Source: Neoconidiobolus thromboides FSU 785 (lineage: Eukaryota > Entomophthoromycota > Entomophthoromycetes > Entomophthorales > Neoconidiobolaceae). From it: a stretch of 64,000 nucleotides of DNA. Positions 1 through 63,160 of the stretch are shown piece after piece. The first letter of the stretch is position 1. Each line of letters begins with the position of its first letter. Both the position numbers and the translations under genes were made by a program. A model generated the notes under the pieces. That model saw only the letters and a program-made list of their open reading frames with translations, searched no databases and was not told the origin of the DNA. The stretch lies in contig MU626329.1 in assembly GCA_025603075.1 (NCBI GenBank), forward strand, positions 33,102-97,101, read 5' to 3'.

Positions 1-40
1 AAAAGATAGAAAAAGTGATGAAGTCAAAAAACACTCCCAG
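1..40 (+). mobile_element. MITE-like element, copy 1 (cut by window edge)
   Basis: Only the right end of the ~105-bp repeated element is present. It has the diagnostic GTGATGAAGTCAAAAAACAC stretch followed by CTCCCA. The left part lies outside the window. Confidence 0.7.
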
Positions 41-376: not shown

Positions 377-474
377 TATGGGAGTGCTTTTGTGACTTCA
401 TTTTTTCCATTTTTAAGCACCATTTGTGGAAAATTTGTTAATAAAACTCTTGAACACAAAAACACATCTCTTTA
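377..474 (-). mobile_element. MITE-like element, copy 2
   Basis: Reverse-oriented, near full-length copy. It starts TATGGGAGTG, carries TGACTTCATTTTTTCCA, and ends AACACAAAAACACATCTCTT. The central AGCGCT is mutated to AGCACC. It lies in intergenic DNA 70 bp upstream of tRNA-Asn. Confidence 0.85.
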
Positions 475-617: not shown

Positions 618-969
618 TCTACTAAATGTAGTTGCTACTATTTTAAAAATGTTTTGTTAAATGTAAACTTTAAAAACGGTAAAAGTTTGCTGAATTTGGT
701 ATTATTTAAATTCAGCTATAAATCAAAAACGTTCAATTACAAGCTATTTTGATGCTTTTTAATAAAGTCTTTTACAAAAATACTTAATAAATCAAATAAA
801 TAGTAATACACATTTTAGTTATAATATTTTTTATAAAATGTGAAGCAATTCAACTGAAAATAAGCAAAAAACTATTGAATCCGACTGGAAAACCCTGCAA
901 TTATAAATATTCAATAAAATTTTGCTTGTAATGAATAGCAGCCATTAAACTGCACAACAAAAATTATAT
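618..969. other. Intergenic, no feature seen
   Basis: AT-rich spacer between two convergent tRNA genes. No ORF of note and no element copy was recognised. Confidence 0.6.
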
Positions 970-1051
970 GATCAGGATGGGATTCGAACCCACGCCTCCG
1001 AAGAGACCGCGGCCTTAACACGGCGCCTTAGACCAACTCGGCCACCTGATC
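970..1051 (-). tRNA. tRNA-Leu (AAG)
   Basis: On the minus strand, acceptor GATCAGG pairs with CCTGATC. The D arm TGGCCGAG, a long variable arm and the T arm with GGTTCGAATCCC identify a type II tRNA-Leu. The anticodon stem that pairs is CCGTG with CGCGG, which leaves loop TTAAGGC and anticodon AAG. A TAA reading would need a register in which the stem does not pair. Confidence 0.93.
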
Positions 1052-2611
1052 CTTTTATCTATTTAATAAAATAATACTATGTTATTAATTTTGTTTTTAA
1101 TCAAATTATTAAATCTTATTAAAGCTAGTATCTTTTATATTTGAGATAGTTTAAATGTATTTTATATAATACGTGCTTTTTCAAAAGTTTTAATACAATA
1201 GAATAAATGCTAAGTATAAATTTATATTTAAAGTTTGAAGTTTATTATTATTCATCCAAGTGGTTGTAATATTTATTGTCAAGTCACTAACATTATTTAA
1301 AAGAACTCATAAGGATCAATAATTTTAATAAACTAAAAAATATCCTTATACTGTGAATCATTTTAACTAAATTTACTTCTATATCATTTGTTTCAGTATA
1401 TAGGTCTAATATCACAACTCCATATTGAATTAAAGGTTGTTAAATTAATAGTAAATTAATTATTTTAATTGGTTATTCATATTTCAAAATTCAATAACTT
1501 CCAAATCCAAAAAATTAAGCATATAATATGAAACTCCACTTGAGTTCATTGTTGTTACATTTTGTTCATATTATTTAATTTGAATAGCTGCCCATAATAG
1601 TATTATTTAAGAATTATAGTTCAAAGCTTCGGAACCTTTTGATAAAATAGCATATGGGAATGTGTTTTTGTATTCAAGAATTTTACTAATAATTTTTCCA
1701 CTCAAATAGCGTTTAAAAGAAACATCACCATATCGTCTAGAAAACACTTTATGAAATCGAGTTATAATCCTAACCAAAGGGCTAAAGCTAACGCTTTAGC
1801 TCTAAAATAAGGTCAAGAAATATGCTATATAATTGATCTAAAAATTCAATATACATATTCTTATTAAAGTTCTTTATTCGTTTATTTCTATTACTAAATT
1901 GAGTGTTACAATTCTTTATTTACTTTGATTTATATATTAACCTACTTGTTATACTCCATTTAGTTATTACTTTATCTTTAAAAAAATAATTATAGAATAT
2001 ATATATCTAATATATAAAGATAACGATTAATGGGGGATAAGCAGATAATCTTCGTTGTCTTGTTAATATGAAATTAATGAATTTTTATGTCATAATTAAG
2101 ATCCGGATTAATTTATTGTTTATAATCTAAAACTACAAGATACTCCATATAGTAAAGTCAAAACTACTCACTATGAATTAAAAATTAAAATAAAACTTAG
2201 TTTTACTAAGATGATAAGGAGATTGAAGGTATATTTATAACATCAATATATGAAGTATGAAATTGACATGCATTATTTGAATTTAAAATATTTAGGTAAG
2301 TTGTTTTGTTTTTGTATTGATACTGCTGCTTTATTATCATTTTCTTAATTACATATAACTAAAATTAAATGGGGATAAAGCTGTATTTAATTTAGTTATT
2401 AATGTATAGATTATCTAAAAATAAAAAATCGAGAATTCAGAGGTCAGCTGAAATAAATAGATTCAGTGCACTTAGAAATAATTAACAAATTAAGATATTA
2501 ATATCACATTAAACAAAAGCTCATAGCTTTGGTAAATTGTACTCATAAAACACAGCATTATAAATCAATTAAATCTGTCGCTTTTTATTTTTATTTTTAA
2601 TAATTAATATC
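1052..2611. other. Intergenic with one MITE-like copy
   Basis: AT-rich spacer upstream of the first receptor gene. It contains a shortened element copy at 1653-1732. No coding sequence was recognised. Confidence 0.6.
1653..1732 (+). mobile_element. MITE-like element, copy 3 (internal deletion)
   Basis: Both ends are present (TATGGGAATG ... CATCACCATA) and so is the core TTTTTCCACTCAAATAGCG. The roughly 25 bp containing TGGAAAAAGTGATGAAGTC are missing. The copy at 40524 has a similar deletion. Confidence 0.85.
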
Positions 2612-4930: not shown

Positions 4931-5977
4931 ATGATATTGACTACAGGACAGTGCTTACAGTTAGCTATAGCAATAATAGGACTTGTTTTAAATATAGCGG
5001 TGGGCCTTGTTGTTGGCTTTGGTTTAAAATTAAAGAGCCCAGATTTAAAGCTAATGCTAGTTATGTCAATATTGGACACTTATTATTATATTCATAATAT
5101 AGTGAGGATAAGTTTAATAAGTTTGGAATATTTAATGGTTGACACGATAGATTTAAATCCTGCACCACTGTGGTGGTGTCGTTTTGATGCTACCATTGAT
5201 ATGGCGTTGTATTTAGTATGTATTGAATTGGTAGCCACCCTTAGCTTTATGCGCTATTTAAACATATGTAGGAAGGTAGATATAAAGCCAACTAGATGGT
5301 ACTTAATTGGGCTCTTTTCTTTTATTTCCAATTTTTCGTTCTCGTTGATATATATTTATAATGGTTATTACAAATGGTCGTCAACAAAGTTGGTTTGCAT
5401 TGTTGCTGAAAATCCCAATAACAATTTAACCTTTAAAAATTACTATTACTTTTGGGTATCAAATTATCTATTTCGTTCTTTATTATCACTCCTTATCATT
5501 TCTTTTACTTACTTCAGCATGACAAAAAAATATTTTGAGATAATATCATCAAGAGATGGTTTGTTTAAAGCTCAAGGGAGTTATAGTACTGAAAGGTTAA
5601 GCCATATACATGATAGTTCTCAATATTTACATACAGGTGTAAATGAAACCTATAGCTTGAAAGGTCCAAATTTATTTAAGCAAAAATTATTTACAATAAT
5701 GAAGCTTTTCGGCGCTATATTTGCTTACACCATATGTATTACACCAGATATTGTCCTAAATATACTAAGTCTTCTTCCAGGTGGGTTGGAGGGTTTTGGT
5801 GTAGATATTAGTCTTTCTGTATTTTCTAACCTTTTGTTAAGTTGCTATGGAATAATCAATGCTTTGTTTGTTTTGCTTTCCCATGATCCCTCAAAGCGAT
5901 ATATTTATAATCAAATAGAGTACTTTGTGAAAGGCACCAAATCCTACAATAACCATCAGACTTTGATTCATCAATAG
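4931..5977 (+). CDS. Seven-helix class A-like G-protein-coupled receptor, paralog 2
   Basis: This 348-residue intronless protein is a close relative of the gene at 2612. It shares the short outer N terminus, WWCRFDATIDMALYL at helix 3, LSFMRYLNICR at the inner end of helix 3, NGYYKWS in the second outer loop, and SHDPSKRY after helix 7. The inner loop 3 (about residues 205-255) is polar and diverges, as expected where G-protein coupling is set. It is arranged head-to-tail with paralog 1, which suggests tandem duplication. A membrane sensor is inferred; the ligand cannot be read from the sequence. Confidence 0.88.
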   Translation: MILTTGQCLQLAIAIIGLVLNIAVGLVVGFGLKLKSPDLKLMLVMSILDTYYYIHNIVRISLISLEYLMVDTIDLNPAPLWWCRFDATIDMALYLVCIELVATLSFMRYLNICRKVDIKPTRWYLIGLFSFISNFSFSLIYIYNGYYKWSSTKLVCIVAENPNNNLTFKNYYYFWVSNYLFRSLLSLLIISFTYFSMTKKYFEIISSRDGLFKAQGSYSTERLSHIHDSSQYLHTGVNETYSLKGPNLFKQKLFTIMKLFGAIFAYTICITPDIVLNILSLLPGGLEGFGVDISLSVFSNLLLSCYGIINALFVLLSHDPSKRYIYNQIEYFVKGTKSYNNHQTLIHQ

Positions 5978-7425: not shown

Positions 7426-7529
7426 TATGGGGGTGTTTTTTTGATTTCCTCACTTTCTCTATCTTTTAAGCATTATTTGAGCGAAAAATTCATTAGTAAA
7501 ATTCTTAAACATAAAAATACATCCTCGTA
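7426..7529 (-). mobile_element. MITE-like element, copy 4
   Basis: Full-length reverse copy, TATGGGGGTG ... CATCCTCGTA, with TTTTAAGCATTATTTGAGCG at its centre. Confidence 0.85.
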
Positions 7530-8086: not shown

Positions 8087-9115
8087 ATGGAGATGCTTAG
8101 TGGTCAGATAGCAATGATAATAGCCTCAGTTATTGGGCTAGTTCTAAACTTGTTAGTAGGAGCGATTGTCACTATTGGTTTACAATTAAAAAGTATCGAC
8201 TTAAAAATGATAGCGATCATTTCACTCACCGATATCATTTTTTATTTTTGGAATATACTAAGGGTTATTCTTAACAGTACAAATTTAGTACCAATAGCAT
8301 TTGATATTTTACACCAAACCCCTACCTGGTGGTGCCCATTAGATTTTGTTATTACTATGACCTGCTTAGGCACGTCAGTGGAATTAGTTGCAATTCTAGG
8401 GCTGATTCGCTATACAAAAATTTGTTGCCAAAAGGAATTACCTTCATACGTCTGGTATGGTCTAGTAGTTTTGTCATTTTCGCTATCGATAGCCTTAGCG
8501 TTAGGAAATGAATATTATGGGTACTATTTTTGGTCAAGGACTCAAATGTTTTGCTTGGTAGCGATAAATACTAATATAGCAGAGGGATTGTTAAATTACC
8601 AATATTATTTGATTTTTTATTGTTTTTATGCTATTAGAAGTATTATTGCTTTAGTTATTATTGCATTTTGCTATTTCAAAGTTACTACTGTCTATCGCCA
8701 AGCCCTTAAATCAACAATAACTATTAATTTGAAGAAGAAAACTCAATTATCTGACAGTATAATTAATCAAAATAATGATTCGGAATTCATTCCAAGTAAA
8801 GATAGCGTAGAAACATTTGAAAGTGAAAGTCCGGAAGAAACTGCAATAATGCATCGCAGCCACAATCTAAAAATAAATCGTAATTTTGCTACTATTAAAA
8901 TGATGAGTGCAAGTTTAGCATATATGATTTGCTTGTTACCTGATGTTATCCTTACTATTCTTGATCTTGGTTTTGATTCATACCCTGGCCCTTCTGTAGC
9001 GACTGCTTCTAATGTCTTACTTTGTTTTACAGGAGTAGTGTCTGCTCTCTTTGTCCTCTTATCTCATGCTCCTTCACGAGAATTTCTTGTGAGACATGTT
9101 AGATCAATGTTTTAG
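8087..9115 (+). CDS. Seven-helix class A-like G-protein-coupled receptor, paralog 3
   Basis: This 342-residue intronless receptor belongs to a second subgroup with the gene at 11153. The two share YYGYY in the second outer loop and SHAP rather than SHDP/SHEP after helix 7. It keeps WWCP at the start of helix 3, IRY at its inner end, and CLLPD in helix 6. Inner loop 3 is long, charged and Ser/Thr-rich (about residues 210-265), a plausible site for phosphorylation. A TATA box lies 65 bp upstream. The function is inferred to be a plasma-membrane receptor for an unknown signal. Confidence 0.87.
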   Translation: MEMLSGQIAMIIASVIGLVLNLLVGAIVTIGLQLKSIDLKMIAIISLTDIIFYFWNILRVILNSTNLVPIAFDILHQTPTWWCPLDFVITMTCLGTSVELVAILGLIRYTKICCQKELPSYVWYGLVVLSFSLSIALALGNEYYGYYFWSRTQMFCLVAINTNIAEGLLNYQYYLIFYCFYAIRSIIALVIIAFCYFKVTTVYRQALKSTITINLKKKTQLSDSIINQNNDSEFIPSKDSVETFESESPEETAIMHRSHNLKINRNFATIKMMSASLAYMICLLPDVILTILDLGFDSYPGPSVATASNVLLCFTGVVSALFVLLSHAPSREFLVRHVRSMF

Positions 9116-9558: not shown

Positions 9559-9655
9559 TATGGGGATGTCTTTGTTTAAGAATTTTACTAAAAAATCCTG
9601 CTCAATAGCACTTTAAAAAGGTAAAATAGTTGAAACCTAAAAGGACACCCCCATA
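9559..9655 (+). mobile_element. MITE-like element, copy 5
   Basis: TATGGGGATG ... GGACACCCCCATA. The ends are well preserved. The centre is degenerate (CTCAATAGCACTTTAAAAAG). Confidence 0.85.
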
Positions 9656-10503: not shown

Positions 10504-10607
10504 TATGAGGATATATTTTTGTATTTAAGAGTTTTACCAACAATTTTACACTCAAATAGCGCTTAAAAGATGGAAAAAGTAATGAAGCCAAAAAAATCAT
10601 TCTCGTA
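10504..10607 (+). mobile_element. MITE-like element, copy 6
   Basis: TATGAGGATA ... TCTCGTA, with intact CACTCAAATAGCGCTTAAAA and GATGGAAAAAGTAATGAAG. Confidence 0.87.
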
Positions 10608-10887: not shown

Positions 10888-10969
10888 GTCAATTTGGCCG
10901 AGCGGTCTAAGGCGTTGCACTTAAGATGCAATCTCGAGAGAGGCGTGGGTTCGAACCCCACAGTTGACA
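10888..10969 (+). tRNA. tRNA-Leu (TAA)
   Basis: Acceptor GTCAATT pairs with AGTTGAC (one G-U pair). The anticodon stem TTGCA/TGCAA encloses CTTAAGA, giving anticodon TAA. It has a long variable arm and a GTGGG-TTCGAAC-CCCAC T arm. The open frame that runs through it is not a protein gene. Confidence 0.95.
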
Positions 10970-11152: not shown

Positions 11153-12175
11153 TTAAAGTAAAGAATTTGTTGAAAAGATCTTATCAAAAGTATTAAAAAA
11201 ATAGGTCCTAGTTGGAGCATGAGAAAATAACACGAATAGGGCAGAAACAATACCAGTGCAGCTACATAATGAATTGATTGCCGTTTTTGCACCAGTACTA
11301 AAGCTGACTCCCAGTACTAATACTGTAAAGGTTTGAATTGCATCGGGTAATAAACATAGAACATAAGCTAAAGTTGGTGCTATTAATTTTAACATTTGAA
11401 CTGCTCTTTTTATTCTACTACTTGTAGAACATTGGTTAATTATTCTTATATTTTGATTATTATCTTCAACGTTTAGATCTTCTTTAAATTGTGAATAATC
11501 TAATCTATTATGGTTGCCTTGACTTGAATGTGTTAAGGATTGTCTTATTACCTTGCGATAGGCTCTAGATATACTAAAATAACAAAACGTAATTATAGAT
11601 AATGAGATCAAATATCTTATCACAAAAATAACAAAGTAGATGTCATAATATAAGACATTACTTAATTGGTTAGGATCTTCAGGGCCGGATGGTGTATATG
11701 TAGTTGGTAAACAGTACATTTTCGTTGCTGACCAGCCATAATAGCCGTAGTAATGATGAATCGAAACTAACGTAAAAGAAAGTGAAACTAAAAATAAGGC
11801 CATACTATAAAATACGTAATTTGGTATTGGTCTATTTACAAAAATTTTGCAGTATCTCATTAAACTCAATACTGCAACTAAATCAATAGATAGCTCTAAT
11901 GTTGGTAAGGTTATAGTCACATCATAAATACACCACCATTTTGGTATTTGAATTAATGAATCGCTATTTACTAGTATTATATCGCTATTTGATAGTATAG
12001 TCCTTAATATATTGTTTGAATAATAAACAATATCATTTAAGGCGATGATTAAAACCAATATTAAATCGGAGTTGCTTAATTTTAAACCTATAGCAACAAT
12101 TGAACCAACTAACAAATTCAATATCAAACCTATCATAGATATTATTACTAACACAATTTGACCTAGATGTAGCAT
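11153..12175 (-). CDS. Seven-helix class A-like G-protein-coupled receptor, paralog 4
   Basis: This 340-residue intronless receptor starts MLHLGQIVLV and has a very short outer N terminus. Helix 3 begins after WWC and ends LSLMRYCKI. The second outer loop carries HHYYGYYGWS and a Cys. Helix 6 has CLLPD, and the sequence after helix 7 is FSHAPTR. It pairs with paralog 3 as a subgroup but lies on the opposite strand, with tRNA-Leu(TAA) between them. The inner loop 3 is polar. The ligand is unknown. Confidence 0.87.
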   Translation of the reverse strand: MLHLGQIVLVIISMIGLILNLLVGSIVAIGLKLSNSDLILVLIIALNDIVYYSNNILRTILSNSDIILVNSDSLIQIPKWWCIYDVTITLPTLELSIDLVAVLSLMRYCKIFVNRPIPNYVFYSMALFLVSLSFTLVSIHHYYGYYGWSATKMYCLPTTYTPSGPEDPNQLSNVLYYDIYFVIFVIRYLISLSIITFCYFSISRAYRKVIRQSLTHSSQGNHNRLDYSQFKEDLNVEDNNQNIRIINQCSTSSRIKRAVQMLKLIAPTLAYVLCLLPDAIQTFTVLVLGVSFSTGAKTAINSLCSCTGIVSALFVLFSHAPTRTYFFNTFDKIFSTNSLL

Positions 12176-14394: not shown

Positions 14395-14494
14395 TATGAG
14401 GATACTTTTTTAGCTAAGAATTATATCAATAACTTTTCTATTCGATAACAGGTTAAAAACAGAAGAAGCAATGAAGTCAAAGAACATGCTCATC
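14395..14494 (+). mobile_element. MITE-like element, copy 8
   Basis: TATGAGGATA at the start and GCAATGAAGTCAAAGAACA near the end match the consensus. The core is diverged. It lies about 140 bp past the stop codon of the DEPKKD-repeat gene. Confidence 0.7.
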
Positions 14495-14630: not shown

Positions 14631-15407
14631 CTAAAGGTCTAAATCTAAAGCTGGATAAGTCTCTTTCTTTGAGTCATCCTTCTTAGATTCGTCTTTCTTT
14701 GGTTCATCTTTCTTTGGTTCATCTTTCTTTGGTTCATCTTTCTTTGGTTCTTCTACTTTAGGTCCATCCTTTTTAGGTTCTTCTACCTTAGGTTCATCTT
14801 TTTTTGGTTCATCTTTCTTTGGTTCATCTTTCTTTGGCTCGTCTTTCTTTGGTTCATCTACTTTAGGTTCATCTTTCTTAGGTTCATCCTTTTTAGGTTC
14901 ATCCTTTTTAGGTTCATCATCCTTCTTTGGTTCATCTTTCTTTGGTTCATCTTTCTTAGGTTCATCATCCTTCTTAGGTTCATCNNNNNNNNNNNNNNNN
15001 NNNNNNNNNNNNNNNNNNNNNNNNNNNNNNNNNNNNNNNNNNNNNNNNNNNNNNNNNNNNNNNNNNNNNNNNNNNNNNNNNNNNTCATCCTTCTTAGGTT
15101 CATCATCCTTCTTAGGTTCATCCTTCTTAGGTTCATCATCCTTCTTTGGTTCATCCTTCTTAGGTTCGTCATCCTTCTTTGGTTCATCTTTCTTTGGTTC
15201 ATCTTTCTTTGGTTCATCTTTCTTTGGTTCATCAGGTTTACCAGTTGGACCACCAGTTCCAGCTTCACAAGTACCAGTTACAGTAGTAGTAACTTCAACA
15301 GTTTTTACAGTACGAGTAATAGTTTCAGTAACAGTTTTACATTTTTCGGCACTGATTAAGCTAATTCCAGCTAATAAAAATAAGGCAACTGGTAAACTGT
15401 ATTTCAT
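14631..15407 (-). CDS. Secreted DEPKKD-repeat protein
   Basis: The product starts with a signal peptide (about residues 1-20, ending ISAE). A short segment with two Cys and a Thr-rich TVTETITRTV motif follows, then a Gly/Pro linker. The rest is tandem 5-6 residue units DEPKKD/EPKKD, with EPKVE variants near the C terminus, and it ends in an acidic ALDLDL tail. The repeat is charged and disordered, as in fungal wall or adhesin-like proteins; function is inferred only. A 100-N assembly gap sits in the repeat, so true length is unknown. The Thr motif is shared with the divergent neighbour at 16156. Confidence 0.8.
   Translation of the reverse strand: MKYSLPVALFLLAGISLISAEKCKTVTETITRTVKTVEVTTTVTGTCEAGTGGPTGKPDEPKKDEPKKDEPKKDEPKKDDEPKKDEPKKDDEPKKDEPKKDDEPKKDXXXXXXXXXXXXXXXXXXXXXXXXXXXXXXXXXXDEPKKDDEPKKDEPKKDEPKKDDEPKKDEPKKDEPKKDEPKVDEPKKDEPKKDEPKKDEPKKDEPKVEEPKKDGPKVEEPKKDEPKKDEPKKDEPKKDESKKDDSKKETYPALDLDL
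14985..15084. other. Assembly gap (100 N) in a tandem repeat
   Basis: Exactly 100 N inside the DEPKKD repeats, probably a placeholder length. The reading frame happens to stay open across it. Confidence 0.98.
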
Positions 15408-18587: not shown

Positions 18588-18659
18588 CTCTCGAGCGGGG
18601 AATTGAACCCCGGTCTCCCGCGTGACAGGCGGGGATACTCACCACTATACTACCCGAGA
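18588..18659 (-). tRNA. tRNA-Asp (GTC)
   Basis: On the minus strand, acceptor TCTCGGG pairs with CTCGAGA. The D arm reads TAGTATAGTGGT, the anticodon loop is CTGTCAC with GTC, the T arm is CGGGG-TTCAATT-CCCCG, and the discriminator is G, as expected for Asp. No intron. Confidence 0.96.
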
Positions 18660-19530
18660 CTTTATATTCTGTTGCTAAAAAATATATATAACATTTTTGA
18701 TTTGTTATAATATCAAAACGAAACCACCTGAAGTAGAAAGTTTATGACAGATTCTATCTGACAATTTTAAGTCTCACGTTTTCTATAACAAACGTAGAAT
18801 TCAGTAGCAATAGATACAAAACTATAAATTTAGGGATGTATTTTTGTGCTTGAATTTTATTAACAATTTTTCCACTCAAATAGCGCTTGAAATGATAGTC
18901 AAAAAAAACATTCCCATTTATATCATATTTTCAATCACACACTTTTTGCCCATCAAAAAATAATAAATTATGTCCGTGACTGTATTTTTATAGAAATAAG
19001 AATATGAATTTTATGCATAGTTTAAAAAGAACAAATAATCGGTATATCTAAACCAATATTAGCGCTTATGTACATCTTTGTCTCTTTAAACTAAGTATTT
19101 AAGCTATAGTTATTAGATATATGTATGCTACACCTTTATAGTGAATGAAAGCTGATCAAGAGTTTAGGCTAAAATTCAAATTAAATCCCAACTCAATGGA
19201 AAGGGATACTGTTCTGAGGTCAACCGCTAATTCATTGATTTATGAAGTTAAGAAATGAAATGTAAAGCTTATTTTATAGGATTTTTTGAACATCATCTAC
19301 ACAATAGCTTTTTGCATGTTTTTGGTGTAAATGTTTTTGATGTAAACATTTCAATATATTAAAAAGCTATTCTTAGTATTATATTTGAAAATACATAATC
19401 ACAGTTTTATAATTTTATTTAAATCAAAATACAACTAAACACAATGGGTCAAACAACTCAATGAAGTATGGTATTTGAATAATGAAATATTAAAGATTAA
19501 AAAAAAGTTAGTTTATTTTAATACATAAAA
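18660..19530. other. Intergenic with one MITE-like copy
   Basis: AT-rich spacer with the element at 18831. A short imperfect direct repeat, TTTTGGTGTAAATG / TTTTGATGTAAACA, occurs near 19320-19350. Confidence 0.55.
18831..18919 (+). mobile_element. MITE-like element, copy 9
   Basis: TAGGGATGTATTTTTGTG at the start, an intact TTTTTCCACTCAAATAGCGC core, and a CATTCCCAT end. A small internal deletion removes most of TGGAAAAAGTGATGA. Confidence 0.85.
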
Positions 19531-20577
19531 TTAATTATAAAAACACAAGCCAAGGCAGGTTCGAATATCAGATACAAAACATTCAATTTTAAAAGAAAGA
19601 TGGCGTCTAGATGGTTCATGAGATAATAAGACAAAGAGTGCATTGACTAACCCACAACATGTTAATAAAAGATTAGAACCAGAAATGGCAGTGAGATCAA
19701 AAGTAAAATTATAGGTACCCATTAGGATTAAATTAGTAACATTTAAAAATATATCTGGCATTAGACAAACAGAATAAGCAAAAATTGCTCCTATAAGCTT
19801 TAATGTTGTGATTAACTTTTGTTTCCTTACTGCTTTCTTTTGCGATTTGTAGTCATCTACAATGTTAGTCCCGGCTTCATAGTATTGGGAACTATCTTGG
19901 CTATTGATTACTTTAATACTGGACTTGATTTGTGCTTTTAGAATTATATCTCCAGAAGATGAAATGATCTCATAATATTCATTAGTCATATTAAAATATG
20001 AAAAAGCAATAATTATTAAAGAAAGGATTACACGGATAATATAATTTGAAAGCCATACATAATAATATATCTTAAATACCTTATATGAAGAATCTGGGTT
20101 GTCACCAGGTATACATATCAAGCCACTAACTGACCATTTATAAAATCCGTTATGTAAATATACAACTGCGAATATGAGGTTTGTAAAAAAAGAAAAAGAA
20201 GCAATAGAATACCATATAAATCCATTGATATTTTTCCTCTTACAAATACTCAAATACCTCATAAAACTTAAAATCGCTACCAATTCGACACAAGAAAGGA
20301 ATACAGTCAAGTTGACTGTTGAATCATAAGGGCACCACCATGATGGCTGTGGATTTAATTTATTTGTAATCACAAGGTAATCTATATTAATCAAAATTGC
20401 TCTTACAATATTATGAACATAAAAATATATATCGATCAATGATATAACTAGAATTAGTATTAGGTCAATGCTCTTTAGCTTTAACCCAAAGCTTACTACC
20501 CCGCCTACAATTAAGTTCAATATTAACCCTACTATTGAAATTATAAGCTGAATTATATGCGCTATACTTAAGCCCAT
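19531..20577 (-). CDS. Seven-helix class A-like G-protein-coupled receptor, paralog 5
   Basis: This 348-residue intronless receptor is closest to paralogs 1 and 2. It has WWCPYDST before helix 3, LSFMRYLSICKRKN at its inner end, NGFYKWS plus a Cys in the second outer loop, YFNMTNEYYEIISSSGDI after helix 5, and SHEPSRR after helix 7. It is about 7.4 kb from paralog 4, separated by repeat-protein genes and tRNA-Asp. The full set of motifs and open frame suggest a working gene. Confidence 0.88.
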   Translation of the reverse strand: MGLSIAHIIQLIISIVGLILNLIVGGVVSFGLKLKSIDLILILVISLIDIYFYVHNIVRAILINIDYLVITNKLNPQPSWWCPYDSTVNLTVFLSCVELVAILSFMRYLSICKRKNINGFIWYSIASFSFFTNLIFAVVYLHNGFYKWSVSGLICIPGDNPDSSYKVFKIYYYVWLSNYIIRVILSLIIIAFSYFNMTNEYYEIISSSGDIILKAQIKSSIKVINSQDSSQYYEAGTNIVDDYKSQKKAVRKQKLITTLKLIGAIFAYSVCLMPDIFLNVTNLILMGTYNFTFDLTAISGSNLLLTCCGLVNALFVLLSHEPSRRHLSFKIECFVSDIRTCLGLCFYN

Positions 20578-21730: not shown

Positions 21731-21831
21731 TATGAGTATGTGTTTTTTTGTTTAAATTTTACTGATAGCCTTTCCACTCAAATAGCGTTTAAAAATAGAA
21801 AAAGTGATGAAACCAGAAAAATATCCACATA
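21731..21831 (+). mobile_element. MITE-like element, copy 10
   Basis: TATGAGTATG ... ATATCCACATA, with the TTTCCACTCAAATAGCG core and AAAAAGTGATGAAACCAG. Confidence 0.87.
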
Positions 21832-24061: not shown

Positions 24062-25315
24062 ATATAAATAATCTATTTGTAAATTTAATAATATACATTT
24101 TAATTCCTTCAGACATATTTTTTAGAAAAATTTCCTTACTAAAATGCTACTTTTTATATAATTCCATTTGTGAAGCAAGTAGTTAAAACTTTACTAATTT
24201 CACTATACTTTTTTTGAGGGATTAAGTGCTTAAAGTAATGTTTGTTAAAAGTATAATATCAACTGAAATGTATTTACAGGAAAATTAATGAGGAATCACT
24301 GTAGATAGTAGCCAGGGGTTCTACGTACTTTTAATTTTATTATGGGCTAGAACATCAACTTAACTGTATTTCTATTGGATTTCTTATAAACGATGCTAAA
24401 AATTATTGAACTAGTGTTCATGTTATCGATTTTATTGTTTCAAATGAAAAACTCATAGAAGCTTTGGGGGGGCAATCTAATTAGCAAGAATAGTAGTTTG
24501 CAATCCAATTAAGCCTAATAGTTATTCCAAGGCTCCATACCACCCATGAAATTAACACTGTATCCTTCATTAGAAAAAAACACCTATTCGCCTATTAGTA
24601 TCACTTATAATTAGTCGGGTATAAATTTGATTAAAAATACAAATGAGTTTACTATAGGCTTGCATAGCCGAGTAATATAAAAGGACTAGAACAAAGTACT
24701 GAATTTAGATTTTTTATGGGTTCCTAATTTGAGGCCCCCTTACATAGGCCTCCTGTTTATCTATTGTTATACTCATTTGGTCAATAAGATATTTGCGTTT
24801 TTGAATTTTGAATATTCTCAAGCTTTTAATCCAAAAACAAGATTATATGAGGATGTACTTTTATGTTTAAAATTTTTACTAAATTTTCTGCTCAAATAGC
24901 GCTTAAAGGATGGAAAAGTGATGAAATCAAAAAAAACATCACCATATTTTATTTGCTAAAATGGTAGGTAATAAAAATGAGGCTCCAAAATAGAAATCAT
25001 TTCTCTTAGGTAAGCCAAAAACAAAATTTAGCAAATTTTAGTCAATAAAATTTAATAATTGGGAACTATATAAGAATTACATCTTTTCCAAAAGAATCGT
25101 TAAACAGTAAACAATTAATAAGATACATTTGAAAACTTAGAGTATTTGCAATAGTTTCACCTCATCCTGTTATCTAATTGTTATTCTGTTTACGAAGGAG
25201 AATATTAAAAGTTTGAAATCAATAAAACAAGAGCCAAAATTCAATAAAACAAGGGTCAAAATTTAAATAAGATGTTTTTTTGTAAATTAATGTATGACTT
25301 TTAATCAGCGGTTAA
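24062..25315. other. Intergenic with one MITE-like copy
   Basis: AT-rich spacer with the element at 24846. A small GAGGCC...GGCCTC inverted repeat lies near 24731-24752. Confidence 0.55.
24846..24946 (+). mobile_element. MITE-like element, copy 11
   Basis: TATGAGGATG ... CATCACCATA, with CTCAAATAGCGCTTAAAGGA and TGGAAAAGTGATGAAATC. Confidence 0.88.
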
Positions 25316-27241: not shown

Positions 27242-27343
27242 TATGAGGATTTTTTTTGGCTTAACTACTTTTTCCGTCTTTTAAGTACTGTTTGGGTAAA
27301 AAAATTGTTAGTAAATCCCTAAACACAAAAATACATCCCCATA
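27242..27343 (-). mobile_element. MITE-like element, copy 12
   Basis: TATGAGGATT ... CATCCCCATA in reverse orientation, with TACTTTTTCCGTCTTTTAAG and AAACACAAAAATACATCC. Confidence 0.87.
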
Positions 27344-27927: not shown

Positions 27928-28033
27928 TCTGGGGATGTATTTTTGTGTTTAAGAATTTTACTAACAAATTTTCCACTCAAATAGCGCTTAAAAAATGGAA
28001 AAAATAATGAAGTAAAAAAAAAACACTCCCATC
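27928..28033 (+). mobile_element. MITE-like element, copy 13
   Basis: A copy close to consensus: GGGGATGTATTTTTGTGTTT, CACTCAAATAGCGCTTAAAA, and AATAATGAAG then CACTCCCAT. It is nearly identical to the copy at 38386, suggesting recent movement. The outermost TATG has become TCTG. Confidence 0.9.
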
Positions 28034-30035: not shown

Positions 30036-30695
30036 AATAAGTACTGCGATTAAACAGTTTCTACAGTATGATTGAATTTAATGCTGGTTTATTTTATGTT
30101 TGTATTAATCCGATTCTATTATCTATTGCCCTTAAATGTTAGCAATATACTACATAAACTGTTTAAGTATGCCTATAAAGTTAATTATTAGCAAGAGTAC
30201 ACTGTTTTTACTTTTTGTTTATTTTTTATAGATATAAAAACTAAGAGTGTGATTCTCATTAAAAACATTCCTTTTTTCGATTTATTACAATATGATATTT
30301 TATTTGTGTAAAATCATAATAATAATTTTAATGTTTTATTAGTTTTACTTAATTCATAATTAATCCAAATTTATTCACTACATAAGAGTACTTTAATTTG
30401 TTTTAGCCTTCTATCTACTTTTAAGCAGCTTAAAACTGAAATAATTGTTAGTAAAATCTTTAAATAAAAAAACATTCTTATGTTGTAAATAATTTTATAA
30501 CCTTATTCTACACTAAGCTTGTATTATTTTCAATTTTCAGTTCTTGATGCTAATAAGGTTAACCATAGACGATAAAAGTATCAAATAAAAAGATCCCTTT
30601 GTCCTTAAATCAATGTAGCAAATCAGAGTGCTTAAATTTAGCATAATGTTCGATTTTTACAAAAAAGGAGGTTGCTTTTTCTATACAAATTTAAA
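30036..30695. other. Intergenic with one MITE-like copy
   Basis: Spacer between the VAP and Air-type genes, holding a degenerate reverse element at 30383. No other feature was seen. Confidence 0.6.
30383..30480 (-). mobile_element. MITE-like element, copy 14 (degenerate)
   Basis: GAGTACTTTAATTTGTTTTA, CTACTTTTAAGCAG and AATTGTTAGTAAAATCTTTA, then AACATTCTTA, match the reverse consensus in order with many substitutions. Confidence 0.7.
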
Positions 30696-33647: not shown

Positions 33648-35147
33648 ATGAAATCTTTTATCACTGAACTTATCCCTTTCTTAGCTATTGCTTCAGCCTT
33701 AAACTTGCCCGAAAGTAACAATGTAGCTAACAACCAAGCAGTGGCGGCTAAAGGGCATGGTTATGGAACTAAACCAAGTACTGGATACGGAAGTGGTCTC
33801 AACTATGCCAATAATCCATTCAACTCTCCAGAACTTTTACAAGCATTCTATCAATATCTTTGCAAATATAGGGGTTATGGATGTAATTATGTAAGTAGAC
33901 CAGGATCATCAGGAACCCCAGGATCAAGTGGAACTCCAGGATCATCAGGTACTCCAGGTTCAAGTGGAACTCCAGGGTCATCAGGTACTCCAGGGTCATC
34001 AGGTGCCCCAGGGTCAAGTGAAATTCCAGGATCAAGCGGAACTCCAGGGTCATCAGGAACTCCAGGATCAAGTGGAACTCCAGGAACATCAGGAACTCCA
34101 GGATCAAGTGGAACTCCAGGATCATCAGGTACTCCAGGATCATCAGGTACCCCAGGATCATCAGGTACCCCAGGATCAAGTGGAACTCCAGGCTCAAGTG
34201 AAACTCCAGGATCAAGTGGAACTCCAGAGTACTCCACCCCAGGATCAAGTGGAACTCCAGGGTCATCAGGAACTCCAGGATCAAGTGGNNNNNNNNNNNN
34301 NNNNNNNNNNNNNNNNNNNNNNNNNNNNNNNNNNNNNNNNNNNNNNNNNNNNNNNNNNNNNNNNNNNNNNNNNNNNNNNNNNNNNNNNNNNNNNNNNNNN
34401 NNNNNNNNNNNNNNNNNNNNNNNNNNNNNNNNNNNNNNNNNNNNNNNNNNNNNNNNNNNNNNNNNNNNNNNNNNNNNNNNNNNNNNNNNNNNNNNNNNNN
34501 NNNNNNNNNNNNNNNNNNNNNNNNNNNNNNNNNNNNNNNNNNNNNNNNNNNNNNNNNNNNNNNNNNNNNNNNNNNNNNNNNNNNNNNNNNNNNNNNNNNN
34601 NNNNNNNNNNNNNNNNNNNNNNNNNNNNNNNNNNNNNNNNNNNNNNNNNNNNNNNNNNNNNNNNNNNNNNNNNNNNNNNNNNNNNNNNNNNNNNNNNNNN
34701 NNNNNNNNNNNNNNNNNNNNNNNNNNNNNNNNNNNNNNNNNNNNNNNNNNNNNNNNNNNNNNNNNNNNNNNNNNNNNNNNNNNNNNNNNNNNNNNNNNNN
34801 NNNNNNNNNNNNNNNNNNNNNNNNNNNNNNNNNNNNNNNNNNNNNNNNNNNNNNNNNNNNNNNNNNNNNNNNNNNNNNNNNNNNNNNNNNNNNNNNNNNN
34901 NNNNNNNNNNNNNNNNNNNNNNNNNNNNNNNNNNNNNNNNNNNNNNNNNNNNNNNNNNNNNNNNNNNNNNNNNGGAACTCCAGGATCAAGTGGAACTCCA
35001 GGGTCATCAGGAACTCCAGGATCAAGTGGAACTCCAGGATCAAGCGGAACTCCAGGGTCATCAGGAACCCCAGGCTTTTCTGGACATTATCGTAGTTATA
35101 GACGTAAGAATAATCATGGCTCTTATGACCGTTATGGCGTTTACTAA
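33648..35147 (+). CDS. Secreted collagen-like GSSGTP-repeat protein
   Basis: The product starts with a signal peptide (MKSFITELIPFLAIASA), then a short Gly/Tyr/Asn segment with two Cys (CKYRGYGCNY). A long run of six-residue GSSGTP units follows, with EIPG, APG and ETPG variants. The tail is SGHYRSYRRKNNHGSYDRYGVY. The period-three Gly with frequent Pro resembles collagen (G-S-S-G-T-P), so a triple helix is possible but not shown. A 685-N gap lies in the repeat; frame is kept on both sides, so the total of about 499 residues is approximate. Two relatives lie downstream. A role as an extracellular or spore-wall protein is inferred. Confidence 0.85.
   Translation: MKSFITELIPFLAIASALNLPESNNVANNQAVAAKGHGYGTKPSTGYGSGLNYANNPFNSPELLQAFYQYLCKYRGYGCNYVSRPGSSGTPGSSGTPGSSGTPGSSGTPGSSGTPGSSGAPGSSEIPGSSGTPGSSGTPGSSGTPGTSGTPGSSGTPGSSGTPGSSGTPGSSGTPGSSGTPGSSETPGSSGTPEYSTPGSSGTPGSSGTPGSSXXXXXXXXXXXXXXXXXXXXXXXXXXXXXXXXXXXXXXXXXXXXXXXXXXXXXXXXXXXXXXXXXXXXXXXXXXXXXXXXXXXXXXXXXXXXXXXXXXXXXXXXXXXXXXXXXXXXXXXXXXXXXXXXXXXXXXXXXXXXXXXXXXXXXXXXXXXXXXXXXXXXXXXXXXXXXXXXXXXXXXXXXXXXXXXXXXXXXXXXXXXXXXXXXXXXXXXXXXXXXXXXXXXXXGTPGSSGTPGSSGTPGSSGTPGSSGTPGSSGTPGFSGHYRSYRRKNNHGSYDRYGVY
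34289..34973. other. Assembly gap (685 N) in the GSSGTP repeat
   Basis: N run inside a near-perfect 18-bp tandem repeat. Codons on both sides are in the same frame, so the gap size was probably estimated. Confidence 0.98.
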
Positions 35148-36641
35148 ACTTAAATCTCCCGTTTTATTGTAATAAAGTATTTAAAATTCATCAACTGTTT
35201 AAACTATGCTACTACAAAATAACCTTAAAGTGTCATAGAATAGCAATTTACGTTTATGATTGATTTTAAAATAATATATTGGTATCGATTATTTTTAGCA
35301 ATTTTTCAAGTAAAAATGGCAATTTTTATTAAAAATAACCATCTTAGGCCAAAGAGGACAACACTTTAATATAATAGAGAACAGCCCGTATTTTATGTCT
35401 TTTTAGCTATATAATGTTATGGATCAATTATACTATTATTTATTATATTATATTGATTATTACTTTTAAGCAGTATATAGTTTATTATCGCACTCTTTAT
35501 AGTAATTGAAAGTCTAATATAAATATATATTTTTGAATACTTTTTTCACTTTATTGTTATACTTTGACTTTATAATAAAATAGACTGATATTACAAAGGT
35601 AGCTAAGAGTTTTGTGCCAGTTTTTAAACATTTGAGAGTGTTTTTTGGTTTCATTACTTTTTCCATCTTTTAAGCGTTATTTGAGTGGAAAAATTATTAG
35701 TAAGATTAGATACAAAATACATCCCTATACACGGCTATAACATCAGAAATATCAAAACGTAAAACAAAAGAGATTTAATTGCAATTTATTCTAAATGATA
35801 TTTAAATTGAATAATAAAAACCAGTTTTAATAACACATACTAAAAATACAACTCTTTAATTTTATTGACGTAGCTTTTGATTTTTATTTTAATTAGTGAA
35901 AGATTTAGGAGTAGTGTCCTTTAAAGGACTAAAAAATGAGTATATATTTTAAATTATTTTCAATTATATAATCTTAGTAAATATTACTTAAATGTTAATA
36001 TCCAAACACTTAATATATACTTATTTTTATAATTCTAGCTATTTCCCTCATCATATTTTCTAATAATTTTTTTAAACCCATAAACTATCATTTTAAAAGT
36101 GGAGTTAGTTATTTGATCGTTTTTGTTAGTTGAAAATTTAGTTGTTTTCACATAGTATAACATTTTATACTAGCAGTGTTGTACTTTTATATGACTAGTT
36201 TTAGTGTATGATGTGATTATACTTTCCTTATAAACACTGTTTTGTGAAACGCTTTGTAATGACCACTTCAATTTATAGACAATAGCTTCATTATTTTATA
36301 ATATCTAAGTAATTTAAATTATGAAAATAATGTATAGGCTATACTATCTATTCAAACTCTCTTATCGATTTGTTCCACTTTTTAGTAGTTATAATCATTT
36401 TGGAATTTTCATAAGACTCCTGGCTACCTTATATTTTAAGACAGAAGTAGTATTATGATTCAATGTTAACTATATCTAAGCTTGAAATACTTATACACTC
36501 AATTTTAAAATCGACAATTATTCACATAAAGTTACTGCTTTATTATATTTTTAAATAATGTTACCATTCTTAAACTAAAAAAGTGACAAATTATTGAATA
36601 AAAATTTCAAATGTTTGTTATAAAAAGCAGGATATCAAAAT
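35148..36641. other. Intergenic with one MITE-like copy
   Basis: AT-rich spacer with the reverse element at 35631. No other feature was seen. Confidence 0.6.
35631..35729 (-). mobile_element. MITE-like element, copy 15
   Basis: GAGAGTGTTTTTTGGTTTCA, TTTTTCCATCTTTTAAGCG, TTATTTGAGTGGAAAAATTA, then CATCCCTATA, in reverse orientation. Confidence 0.88.
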
Positions 36642-38385: not shown

Positions 38386-38490
38386 TATGGGGATGTATTT
38401 TTGTGTTTAAGAATTTTACTGACAATCTTTCCGCTCAAATAGCGCTTAAAAAATGGAAAAAATAATGAAGTCAAAAGAAACACTCCCATA
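38386..38490 (+). mobile_element. MITE-like element, copy 16 (best consensus copy)
   Basis: A 105-bp copy running TATGGGGATG ... CACTCCCATA. The outer ~10 bp are imperfect terminal inverted repeats, and TA at each end could be the target duplication. The centre CTCAAATAGCGCTTAAAAAA is flanked by TTTCC and GGAAA, making the whole element an imperfect palindrome. Confidence 0.92.
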
Positions 38491-39224: not shown

Positions 39225-40688
39225 TCAAGAAGGACAGCTATGGGGCTTACAACCGTTATGGTGTTTGCCAAACCTTGAGTTTGATTTTATTAGAATAAAC
39301 ATTTTGAATTTCAATTTGATGATTTATTCTTTCAAGTTAAGGTTGGCAATATAATTCGAAAAATATAACAAAGTAGTAGCTTCATACAAATAATTGAATG
39401 TCTTGAAATTGTAGTATTTGAGTGTTCTAGGCATGGATACGATAAATGCAGAATTATAGTATACTTTGAATTTATAGTTTTTGCTATTCCTATTTACTAA
39501 TAACCAGCTTAAGCTAAAATTAGTGATGCTTTTACTGCAATAAGGAAATAAATATAAAGCTATAACAATACTTTGCGTTAAAGTATAATCTCAAATAATT
39601 TAGTATAAGTACTCATTTAAATTTATGTATTTTTAGCCATGTAGAGTATATACCAAAAATATTACCATTTATCATACTTTTTAACTATTACTTTAAATAG
39701 CTAATATTTTGTTACGTTTTCAAAAAAATTAAAATACATTTGTGACTGTTTCAAAAGTTTGTAATACTGGTTGAGCTCATAATAAATTAAACCAATATTA
39801 AAAGCCAGTATCTTTAGATCAAGTTAAAAAGTATTTGGCATTAAACTATATTTATGTACATTTCAGCTATATTTTAATTAGAGTCATCTTTAAAGATAAA
39901 TGAAAGTATGAAAAAACATGAAAAAACAAAAGCATAGAAAAATTTTATTGATCAATGTTACTTATTCAATTCTATAAACTTGGATAATCATTTTATAAGA
40001 CATAAAAATATATTTCTATATCGCTTTTAATTTATAGAAATACAATCTATAGTAATTGCCACAGTTATTAAAACAAATTGGAATTTTTTAGGTAATTATT
40101 TGTTTTTTAATTTATAACAAAAATCAAAAAATAGATATATAAAAGTTATTTAATTTAAACAACTATGGCAACTACTATGGCTTGAATACTCATAACCTAT
40201 TGAATTTTCATTTACTTGTCTTTTTACAAACATTTTGCTAGTATTTTTAAATATTTATTAAAGTTTGAATATAGCAGTTAATCTACTTTCATTTTTTACT
40301 AAATAATGGAATGATTAAGCTCATTTATTTAACATTATAATCAAAAATAATAGTTTATTATTTAAAATAAAAAATGTCTTAATTTTATTTTAAAGAATAA
40401 TGATCATAACACTAAACTTGACTAAAAGGTTACCAGTTACAATTTTAAAAATTATCATTTCATAAGCACTCCTCGCTATTTACATTAAGAAATAATAATG
40501 AAAAGTTTACATATTGTTAAACATATGTAGATGTGTTTTTTTGTCTAATAATTTTACTAATAGCTTTTTCACTTAAATAATGCTTAAAAACACTCTCATA
40601 TAACAATATAAATTAGTACAGTGCTATTTGTTAAACAAATCTAGTTTAGTAAAATAAATAAAAACTAATCTGAAACAATACAACAAAG
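39225..40688. other. Intergenic with one MITE-like copy
   Basis: Begins with the out-of-frame tail of the preceding gene (to about 39285), then AT-rich DNA with an element at 40524. Confidence 0.6.
40524..40600 (+). mobile_element. MITE-like element, copy 17 (internal deletion)
   Basis: TATGTAGATG ... CACTCTCATA, 77 bp. The TGGAAAAAGTGATGAAGTC section is missing, as in the copy at 1653. It lies 89 bp upstream of tRNA-Leu(CAA). Confidence 0.85.
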
Positions 40689-40770
40689 GGTGATTTGGCC
40701 GAGCGGTCTAAGGCGTCGCACTCAAGTTGCGATCTCGAAAGAGGCGTGGGTTCGAACCCCACAGTCACTA
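40689..40770 (+). tRNA. tRNA-Leu (CAA)
   Basis: Anticodon stem TCGCA/TGCGA with loop CTCAAGT gives CAA. The D arm, long variable arm and T arm are nearly identical to tRNA-Leu(TAA) at 10888. Acceptor GGTGATT pairs with AGTCACT using two G-U pairs. No intron. Confidence 0.94.
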
Positions 40771-55761: not shown

Positions 55762-57318
55762 TTATTCTTCTGGTATATTTTTATTAGCGGGTGGTGGAGT
55801 TAGCATAGGATTTGGTTTCAAAGGTAATAAATTAGGAGTATTAGGAGTGGAAATGGGTAGATTTTCGATATTAGGAAATTGTAAATTTAAAAGTGGTAGT
55901 ATATCATCTTTTAAATCATCTAAAATAGTTTCAAACCCAGATCTAGTCCTTAACAAATCAATCCCATAATTCCATAATTCATTTAATTGTTGTTTATTAT
56001 TACAAAAAGAAGTCAACTCATTTAATACCTGTTCTGTTAAATTAGGTGTATTATTTTTAATTAAATTATTATTATTTAATCGATTAATTTCAAATAAAAA
56101 CCCAGATTGATTGGGTAATAGTTGAATTAAAATCATACCAGATGGATGCATATATTGAGTTCTTTCATAATTGCTTTTAGTATATGAATAAGTAGCTTTA
56201 ACTTGTGAATGACTTAAATAATTATCTTGTTCTACATCTAGAACAAAATTAAATTTTTTCATTACTAATCTACTAAAAAAATTATCAGGTATAGCTGCTT
56301 TAATACCAGGTATAATTAGGTGTTGTGTAATAGATATTAAATTAGGTGGATTTAAACTATAATTTATAATAATTGGACAACGAAATGGATACTCATTAGA
56401 AATTAATGGGGTTTGAGAAACAGGTGTTTCAATCAATTTCAAATGACATTTTTCTGCAACTCTTGACCAAGTTTGTAATAAATCTTCAATTAATCTAGAA
56501 GTACATCCTAACCAATGAATTTGAAAATGATAGGCTAAATTAATATTATAAATTGAATCATAATGTAAATAACATATTTCTTCTCGACTAGATTTTTTAT
56601 TTATATCTAAATCAATTGTTACACTTTGTGATAAATTAATTATTATTTGATTATTATCTTGTAAATCCATAGGATTATTATCTAAATTTAATATATGATT
56701 GTTATTTGTATAATTATTATTTGTGTTACTATCATTTGTATTATTTATATTATTATTGTTATTATTTATATTATTGTTATTATTATGATCATTTGAACTT
56801 GATGAATTAGGTCTGGTATTTCTAAACCAAGATAAATTAGTTTTATTTTGACTATTATTTTGATTATTATTTGATAAACAATAGTTGTTAGTAAATATAT
56901 AAAAGAAATGTCCATCTAAAAAAGAATGATGTTTTCTACAATGAATAAATAAACCTCTTTTCATCAAATCATTTCCAAATTTAACAGCTTCTTCTCGAGT
57001 ATTGATATTATTTATATTTCTTATTATCCAATCTACAATTTCATTACCAACCATACAATTTTCATAATTAATTAAATGCCATCGACGATCCATTATTTTT
57101 AAAGTACTTTGATTATTTTGCATTGCTTGAGCAATTGAACTTAACTTAGATTCTTTGCTTAATTTGTCTGATGAATTCATTAAATGGAATCCGCCTCTTC
57201 TTTTAATAATTGTATTTTTCATTTTTCTAGCTTCACTTCTTAAATAGGCACTTGGTGTTAATGTTGTAAATTGAATATTTAATTGATTTATACTAGTTTC
57301 TAATCCTTTTTTTTGTAG

Positions 57319-57377
<59 letters not shown>

Positions 57378-57462
57378 CACTGTTAGATTGTTTCATTACT
57401 TTTTGAAATTGTTCTAAAAATTTAGAAAAACAAGTTAATCTAAATTCTTCATCATCTAATTG

Positions 57463-57497
<35 letters not shown>

Positions 57498-60400
57498 TAG
57501 TACAATCAATAGGTAATAAAGCAAATCTTGCTCTCCAAAACCTTAAACCTTCAGTAATTTCTTCTTGATAACCAGATATTAAATGATCTAAATAATTCCA
57601 ATTATAAGCATTTAAATTAGGATATGAAAATACGATTTCTCTTCTTGTATATGAATTTCCTGTTTTTGGCCATATTTCTCCAATATATTTAATTGCTCTT
57701 GTTGAATGTTGTATTCTTCTTACATATCTTTTAACTTCAATATTTTGTCCAGATGGATCATATGTTAATCGATGGATATGGTTACCCATACTAAGATAAG
57801 TTGGTTGCATATAATTTATTGTGTCCGATAAATTAAATTGATCATTGTTATTACTATTGTTATTATTACTAATATTTATATTATTATTATTATTTAATAA
57901 ATTACTATTATTATTATTAAATAATTTGATATTATCTTCATCAGGTTGAAATCCACTAACTACTTTTTGAGGTTTGTTTAAATCATTATGATTATCAAAT
58001 ACAATTAATTGAAAGCCTTGAGCTAATCTTTGACTAATTAACTCTTTTAAAAATAAAATTACATTATATTTTATAACTTCTTTTTCTCGGTTATAATCTA
58101 AATTCTCATCATTAGGGGAAACCGTATAAGTATATTCTTGATAAGATTCAGATAATTCATCTAATGTAGGAAAAGAATCTGTAGTTAAAGGTAAACAAGC
58201 AGGAGAACATAAAGAGATCCATTTAGTTGTTTCTTTAAAATTGCTTTTTAAATAAATATGCCGCCATCTTCCCATAGGATTAGTTATTGGTAAATTATTT
58301 TTAGTTATATTACATGGATTTAATATAATTTGTTGATCTAGATTACGTGGATTATTAATTTTTGGTGACATTTTTCCTAAAAATTTATATGTTTCACTAA
58401 CAGGTGAAGATCTATAAGAACCATTATAACTTTCTTTTGGTGATGTATGAAAACTTCTTGGTTCTGGTCTTTTAAAAGATACAATTGGCATTGGTTTACT
58501 ATTTGTTATTAATGTTGATTTATTATTAATATTATTTATGTTGTTTAACAAATTATTATTATTATCTAATAAATTATTATTAATATTATTATTTCTATTT
58601 AACAAATTACTATTATTGGAATGAGGGGAGTTATTGTGTTGTTTCATTACATCATTGATAGTCATTGACCTAGGTAAACTACGAGAAATTGGTGAAGATA
58701 AAGAATCTAAATTTAATAAATTTATTTTTTCTTCTAAACTCCTTAATGCTTCTTTTTCATTAATCAAATTAGGTGATAGTTTTTGCTCTGATTTACTATC
58801 GATATTTAATTCTTTATTGTTGTTATAATTATTATTAATTGTTCTAAGATGAGATTTAATCCTTATTTTTCGTTTATCTGTTCCACAAAATATTTGAGAA
58901 TCATATTGTTCATAAAAAGATTGATATTTTAATAAAGAGCAATTATTATTATTATTGTTTTGGTTATTATTATCATTATCATTGTCATTACTATTTTGAT
59001 TGTTATTATTATTTTGTTCATATTCTTTATCATGAAATAAATTATCCGTTGATTTAACAGTAATTTGATTCAATTCATTTGAATTTGAATTTGAATTTGA
59101 ATTTGAATTCGTTAATAAATTAGTTTTACTTAGTATTAAACTATTACTTATATCTTTGGTATTAAAATTAAGATAAGGAATTGGAAAAATAGATTTAGAT
59201 TCCCCATGAATACCAATACTTTGTAAAGTAGGTAATTTACAACGAGGTATAAAGTTATTATTATTATTTAAAGATAAATTAGTATAATTATAATAACTAA
59301 TTTCCACCCAATGAGGAATAGCAAAATAACTAAATTCCTTATTATTATCTAAATATTCATCTTCATCTAAAAATAGTAAATCTCGATTTTCTAATTTTAA
59401 ATCATTTTGTCTTGTATCAAACAAATCTTGTCGATTTGATTTGCTATTATCTGTTCCAATACTCAATCGATCTAATTTAATGTTATTATTACTATTATTA
59501 TTACTACTGTTATTATTGATATTAATATTAGTGGATGGTATTTTTGATTGAAATTGAAATAATGGAGTTATATGATAAGGTGGTTTAGATAGACAAACTA
59601 AATCTAATGATATTCCATTATCATTCATTCTTTCAAATGTCATCCTTAATAATTTTTTATCTACTTGAAATAATCCATTATTAGGAGTAACTACCATTAC
59701 ACATAACCCAGTACGAATTAAATCCCTATCTACATAATGACGATCAAATCCATTTAATGCTAAGTTCAATGCTTCTAATAAATTCCCATTACCACTCTTT
59801 GAATTTTGACCAATAATATCAATTTTATTGTCATTTTGAACTTCCATTATATTTTTTAAATAGTACATAAATTCTAATTTAATTTGTTTAATTAAACTAC
59901 TCCATTCATTTCGAGTTTCAAAATCTACTACTACTTTATAATAATCTTTAAAGTATTGACCACTCGATTCTAGTTGTTCTGCATTAACTAATTCGGCTTG
60001 TTCAGCTGTATAAAACATACGATTAAATAAAATAATACTAACTACATGATTAGTTCCTAATTTTTTCCAACGATCCATTAAATCAGGTAAAAAACCATCT
60101 AATATTTTTTCGGAATATAAAAAGCCGTCTTCTTCAAAATCGAACAATTCCGAACTCATTTGAATAAATAGATAATATCTTGCTGATTCTGATCGAAAGA
60201 TTAGTTTGGTATTTTTATCAATAAATCCACAACTATATTCCTCTTCTGATATAATTATATTTTTAATTTGTACTCGAATACATCCTGCATACACTATTTT
60301 TTTTCCTACATGAACACTGCTATGTAATAAACTCATTTTTAATCGCCACATATCATTTCGTCCTAAATATTGATCTTTAAATCCTATTTCAACGTAATCT

Positions 60401-62593: not shown

Positions 62594-63055
62594 TTTTAGT
62601 TTGTTATATTCGAGCTTCTAAATTGTTTTCATTTATTGATTTTTGAATTAGTTTAAGTTTTTAATAATTTTAGCATGTAGTTAATATTAACTTTATTCTA
62701 TTTTGTATTAAAATTTATTAATTGAATTGATAAGTAATAAGTTTTAGTATGTTTTATACTTCAATCAATGAATTAAATATACTAAAATAGATACTTAGTA
62801 ATTAAGTTAACTTTAAATTATTAACTATTTAAGATATGATCACAAATCCTATTTAAAAGTGATTAAATAAGTTAGTTTAGTTTAAATTTAAATTTTAATA
62901 TTTCGATATTTATTAATATCAATTGAATCACTCAAATTTTATAGAAACCTTATTAAAAGTTCAAAATTATTATGTAGCATAAAAGTATGAATATAATTTT
63001 AAATATTATTTCTACATATAGAAGCAGAAGTCTCTGTTTCAGAGTTTGTAAAAAA

Positions 63056-63160
63056 TATGGGAGTGTTTTTTTTAATTTCATTACTTTTTCCATTTTTTAA
63101 GCACTATTTAAGCGGAAAATTTGTTAGTAAAATTCTTGAACACAAAAATACATCCCCATA
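63056..63160 (-). mobile_element. MITE-like element, copy 18
   Basis: A 105-bp reverse copy, TATGGGAGTG ... CATCCCCATA, with TTACTTTTTCCATTTTTTAA and TTTGTTAGTAAAATTCTTGA. Same length as the copy at 38386. Confidence 0.9.

Follow-up and report, generated by a model that had tools for sequence, protein, structure and literature searches.

A TA-preferring MITE family in Neoconidiobolus thromboides and the C element as its candidate parent

The closest described systems are the Tc1/mariner-derived MITEs, such as plant Stowaway, which are short, non-coding, TA-flanked and present in very high copy number. Strict Tc1/mariner insertion does not give matching non-TA dinucleotides around a copy. Here we describe a family of ~100-bp repeats from a 64-kb window (the whole stretch of DNA analysed, part of contig C72) of the Neoconidiobolus thromboides FSU 785 assembly, which comprises 23,116,642 bases in 392 contigs; the source sequence has a GC content of 26.5%. 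No description of this family was found in the literature, and the initial annotation of the window had likewise known of none: it is a new family, belonging to a known kind, the miniature DNA transposons. To our knowledge, the tip TGGGGATGT is peculiar to it.

In published text the N. thromboides genome is given as 13.5% repeats (PMC10515909; eLife version PMC11105155), and 'Unknown' repeats are listed for all five genomes (PMC10515909, PMC11105155). The word 'mite' has 0 occurrences in the main text of PMC10515909, and where MITE-Hunter appears in the text of PMC12387763 it is merely as a tool. This 23-Mb genome is described as predominantly non-repetitive (PMC10515909), yet the sampled window carries copies of one MITE family at intervals of a few kilobases. 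Here is a compact setting in which to study how a MITE whose enzyme is out of sight becomes this numerous in an early-diverging fungus; the insertions could also be used as strain markers.

A dispersed family in the window and the genome

A profile built from the window copies matches the window 17 times at E<=0.05, in both orientations and with one copy cut by the window edge (Table 1), while 20 dinucleotide-preserving shuffled windows gave 0 matches. The repeat family is confirmed as real; of the 18 copies in both orientations counted in the initial annotation, the orientations stand and the number falls to 17. Genome-wide, a 33-base pattern of the 5' end (<=3 mismatches allowed) has 1,383 + 1,401 = 2,784 matches and its reversed version 0, a floor, because the pattern misses diverged copies (only four window places satisfy it). 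The 3'-end pattern of a younger variant has 413 + 384 = 797 matches, and its control 0. Extrapolated from 17 copies in 64 kb, the genome would hold ~6,100. At E<=1e-6 the profile has 106 matches in 299,058 non-redundant bases of sampled loci, much of this sample having been picked for MITEs or transposases.

Copies are uniform in length, as annotated before (99-107 bp for most copies): among 73 with both tips placed, drawn from the window and from further loci of this genome, 65 measure 96-103 bp, flanking dinucleotides excluded, with modes at 101 (21 copies) and 100 (20 copies). The tips, TGGGGATGT... and ...CACTCCCA, are inverted, and the ends already noted as shared, TATGGGGATG and CACTCCCATA, are indeed present in the higher-scoring copies. 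No coding capacity was seen in the copies, again as annotated; a single 83-codon open frame extends into the 27929 copy.

Across 97 copies aligned together with flanking bases, divergence from the consensus ranges from 5.5% to 34% (median 14%). Recent activity had been proposed from the copies at 27928 and 38386, described as nearly identical. This description does not hold, as the two share 93% identity over 96 nt. Better evidence than this pair comes from a search of the genome, in which 107 nt of contig C88 match the 38386 copy at 100%. RIP was rejected as the chief cause of divergence, with C>T changes found at 18% of CpA, 17% of CpC, 13% of CpT and 24% of CpG.

Table 1. Coordinates of MITE copies and other features (window positions unless a contig is named)
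Feature	Position	Strand	Evidence or remark
3' part of MITE, cut by window edge	2..40	+	16.6 bits
MITE copy	379..470	-	63.0 bits
Short MITE, both tips kept, part of 3' arm missing	1653..1732	+	profile match
MITE, TA/TA flanks	7428..7528	-	profile match, dinucleotide table
MITE, TA/TA flanks	9559..9653	+	profile match, dinucleotide table
MITE, TA/TA flanks	10504..10604	+	profile match, dinucleotide table
Diverged MITE, TA vs TC flanks unmatched	14395..14493	+	profile match, dinucleotide table
MITE, matching TT flanks	18831..18916	+	profile match, dinucleotide table
MITE, TA/TA flanks	21731..21826	+	profile match, dinucleotide table
MITE, TA/TA flanks	24846..24944	+	profile match, dinucleotide table
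MITE, TA/TA flanks	27243..27343	-	profile match, dinucleotide table
MITE, matching TC flanks	27929..28031	+	profile match, dinucleotide table
Diverged MITE	30385..30475	-	41.0 bits
MITE, TA vs AA flanks unmatched	35633..35728	-	profile match, dinucleotide table
MITE named in the initial annotation, TA to TA	38386..38490	+	92.3 bits; TA/TA; 100% match on C88, 107 nt
Short MITE, both tips kept, part of 3' arm missing	40524..40600	+	profile match
MITE, TA/TA flanks	63058..63160	-	3' arm (63053-63098) matches a C element end, 80% over 46 bp
tRNA gene	544-617		75 bp to MITE
tRNA gene	969-1051		500 bp to MITE
tRNA gene	10888-10969		291 bp to MITE
tRNA gene	18588-18659		174 bp to MITE
tRNA gene	40689-40770		99 bp to MITE
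Similar open frames, ~340-350 codons	2612-3649, 4931-5977, 8087-9115, 11153-12175, 19531-20577
Repeat-rich open frames	14631-15407, 33648-35147		15- and 18-base units
Iml1/DEPDC5-like gene	55762-60351		1,529 codons
Inward-facing C end pair	C97:12638-15136
Inward-facing C end pair	C127:15922-18425
Inward-facing C end pair	C34:62608-65348

Each of the window's five tRNA genes lies <=500 bp from a MITE (post hoc permutation p 0.005), partly because of a MITE-free stretch at 40.6-63 kb; genome-wide, 63 tRNA matches were scored. The window also holds five similar open frames that by eye look like membrane proteins (the two that were scanned have no Pfam match at E<=0.001), two repeat-rich open frames with runs of X in translation that are probably assembly gaps, and an Iml1/DEPDC5-like gene with long asparagine runs.

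Target duplication and empty sites

Of the 106 profile matches, 73 entered a table of flanking dinucleotides, the others being truncated, duplicated, at an edge or without a recognisable tip, and two of these have no full 3' dinucleotide, leaving 71 scorable copies. TA stands on both sides in 48 of the 71, and the two flanking dinucleotides are identical in 53; where they differ (18 copies), the ends may have mutated or been misplaced. Twelve copies in the table come from the window (8 TA/TA, 1 TC/TC, 1 TT/TT and 2 unmatched). An A precedes the TA in 89% of 93 copies. Eleven copies have a 5' dinucleotide other than TA, and five of them carry the same pair on the 3' side (TC, TT twice, AA twice), where 0.44 would be expected; five was never attained in 200,000 permutations.

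We also compared joined MITE flanks with sampled DNA of the same genome, so that the empty sites are paralogous. Joined flanks of 12 copies spanned a match (26 rows); six of the 12 were set aside, as their matches appeared from the coordinates to be other MITE copies, and the other six were aligned, four of them being scored by dropping 0-6 bases. The L046/L045 pair gives 46/50 identities with 2 bp dropped and <=35 with any other drop, and L035/L035 gives 33/50 against <=28. For L040/L045, blurred by an indel in the flank, we obtained 33 with 1 bp dropped and 32 with 2, and the L039/L038 pair is uninformative (23-26 whatever the number dropped). The two aligned pairs that were not scored gave no clean empty site. 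A 2-bp duplication thus fits cleanly in two of the four scored sites.

Matching flank pairs and two clean empty sites make the element a MITE whose target duplication is 2 bp long and prefers TA, and the TA duplication claimed in the initial annotation is supported. Among 78 gaps between neighbouring MITE matches, in a sample chosen to be MITE-rich, four are <=8 bp (0.2 expected); two of these are clean pairs sharing one TA (L047, L008) and two overlap.

The C element and the search for a transposase

Ends of the form TATGGGG(T/G)TGTC(C/T)GAATT also lie outside MITEs, with 111 + 108 = 219 genome matches against 0 for the control. They belong to a second repeat, known from its ends and terminal stretches, for which we coin the name C element. 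It shares with the MITE the tip TATGGGG(T/G)TGTC and, in three of five printed C ends, the context A-TA-TGGGG. The MITE 3' arm matches three of the five sampled C ends (L036, L040, L032), a match reached by 0 of 1,000 shuffles each and, once the first 11 bases are removed, by 0, 7 and 10 of 1,000. The two alignments printed span 42 bp, ungapped, with 33 and 32 identities (76-79%). The other two sampled C ends (L046, L045) show no match to the 3' arm beyond the tip, nor does the MITE 5' arm match the C element beyond the tip. The two elements differ in their interiors, in the number of end matches (219 vs 2,784) and in extent, inward-facing C end pairs being spaced by 1,057, 1,121, 2,499, 2,504 and 2,741 bp (five pairs among 100 listed places).

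Among 100 listed C places, 28 have minus orientation and fall in the opening 2 kb of a contig, 21 of them in its opening 600 bases, compared with two on the plus strand in the same zone, ~3.4% expected, and with four of 100 listed MITE places. Minus-strand C ends near contig starts imply that the interior runs off the contig, the pattern expected of a long repeat at which assembly stops. For a 494-base C terminal stretch, the longest open frame of which has 40 codons, the best 40 of 267 candidates were scored; the others listed are 86-95% identical over most of its length. From these sequence comparisons, the C element is the best candidate for the parent of the MITE, and a concrete place to seek the enzyme. 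Another repeat was rejected as parent: an element of ~465 bp with ends TGTGAAAT, at 359-822 of locus L046 (contig C75) and also in L049 (two tandem copies), L045, L040, L041, L037 and L008, adjoins a TATGGGGA motif in L046 and looks like an independent element inserted into a MITE. Its L046 copy interrupts a MITE and has GGGA on either side, which points to a distinct element whose insertion duplicates 4 bp.

DDE_3, a Tc1/mariner-type transposase domain, has 24 matches in the genome, 22 of them above cut-off, and DDE_1 has two. Bare MITE tips bounding a DDE_3 transposase were found at none of the 24 loci (21 of which were examined with 1.5 kb of flank on both sides), the inverted repeats around these loci gave no lead to a MITE partner, and neither DDE_1 locus contains a MITE match. 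HTH_Tnp_Tc3_2 has a single match below cut-off, on contig C52, adjoining a DDE_3 match. Tested transposase families had no match in the C end pairs either; for Transposase_1 and DDE_Tnp_1_7, there and in the genome (0 matches), zeros are uninformative because the controls were silent. Two small contigs, C225 and C162, account for nine of the 24 DDE_3 matches, several with open frames of ~350 codons.

We think it fairly probable that this ~100-bp non-coding MITE, dispersed thousands-fold, spreads by means of a predicted Tc1/mariner-like transposase acting in trans. The element would move by cut-and-paste, mostly into TA, and the enzyme, putatively of the IS630-Tc1-mariner superfamily, would recognise and presumably bind the MITE tips; both tips and enzyme may stem from the lineage of the C element or from a relative since lost. 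The superfamily is suggested by the TA target together with the tip of the C element, which is GGGTGTCC-like and which we take to resemble Tc1/mariner tips. Against this account stand the five copies with matching non-TA dinucleotides and the fact that no transposase could be tied to the tips, and both give weight to another superfamily. We regard the Tc1/mariner derivation proposed in the initial annotation as plausible but unproven.

The strongest competitor is a MITE from a DNA transposon group outside Tc1/mariner that duplicates 2 bp and merely prefers TA. The matching TC, TT and AA flanks favour such a group, as do tips found at no DDE_3 or DDE_1 locus, whereas the predominance of TA on both sides speaks against it, as does DDE_Tnp_4 with 0 genome matches; on balance we find it doubtful. 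Much less likely still is a composite, in which a DDE_3 gene would lie between two inverted MITE copies acting as its ends. At three of the 24 loci (L012, L018, L020) a DDE_3 match does lie between a plus and a minus MITE, 1.9-2.3 kb apart and with outer tips outward, but at this density of MITEs roughly one of 24 loci would be expected to show the arrangement, on an approximate reckoning, the flanking copies differ, with a partial one in L012, and a boundary was demonstrated at none of the three.

Beyond a Tc1/mariner-like enzyme in trans, one may speculate, at long odds, that MITE and C element form a DNA transposon lineage, so far undescribed, within the early-diverging fungi. It would duplicate any dinucleotide while preferring A-TA-T, keep its transposase inside long C elements at which the assembly breaks, and have spread several thousand MITEs through a compact genome of 23 Mb.

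Symmetry of the tips and comparison with known MITEs

The arm-to-arm score of the consensus, with five flanking bases included, was attained by 0 of 2,000 shuffles, supporting terminal inverted repeats; without the first 14 positions, the score was attained by 168 of 2,000. Single-stranded DNA folds of five copies have z values of -0.6, -1.7, -1.4, +0.4 and +1.0, and RNA folds of three sequences -0.9, -1.1 and -2.0. Neither arm shuffles nor DNA folds reveal long inverted arms with a stable hairpin. The tips are inverted repeats and the remainder is weakly palindromic at most: since shuffles reach the inner arms and DNA folds are weak, only the tips are convincingly symmetrical. The imperfect palindrome of the initial annotation is therefore retained for the tips and not for the inner arms, and its term foldback, applied to the whole length, is too strong. 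A foldback element or structured RNA in place of a TIR-type MITE, as pairing tips and a z of -2.0 for the 63160 copy folded as RNA might suggest, is scarcely credible given the inner arms and DNA folds; sequence divergence already hints that old copies lack covariation, and an RNA family was rejected, only tRNAs passing Rfam cut-offs in the window.

Compared with Stowaway-type MITEs, this family differs in the matching non-TA dinucleotides of some copies and in a partner transposase not found here. It shares with these Tc1/mariner-derived elements the short, non-coding sequence, the inverted tips, the TA flanks, the very high copy number, and the lack of a transposase of its own.
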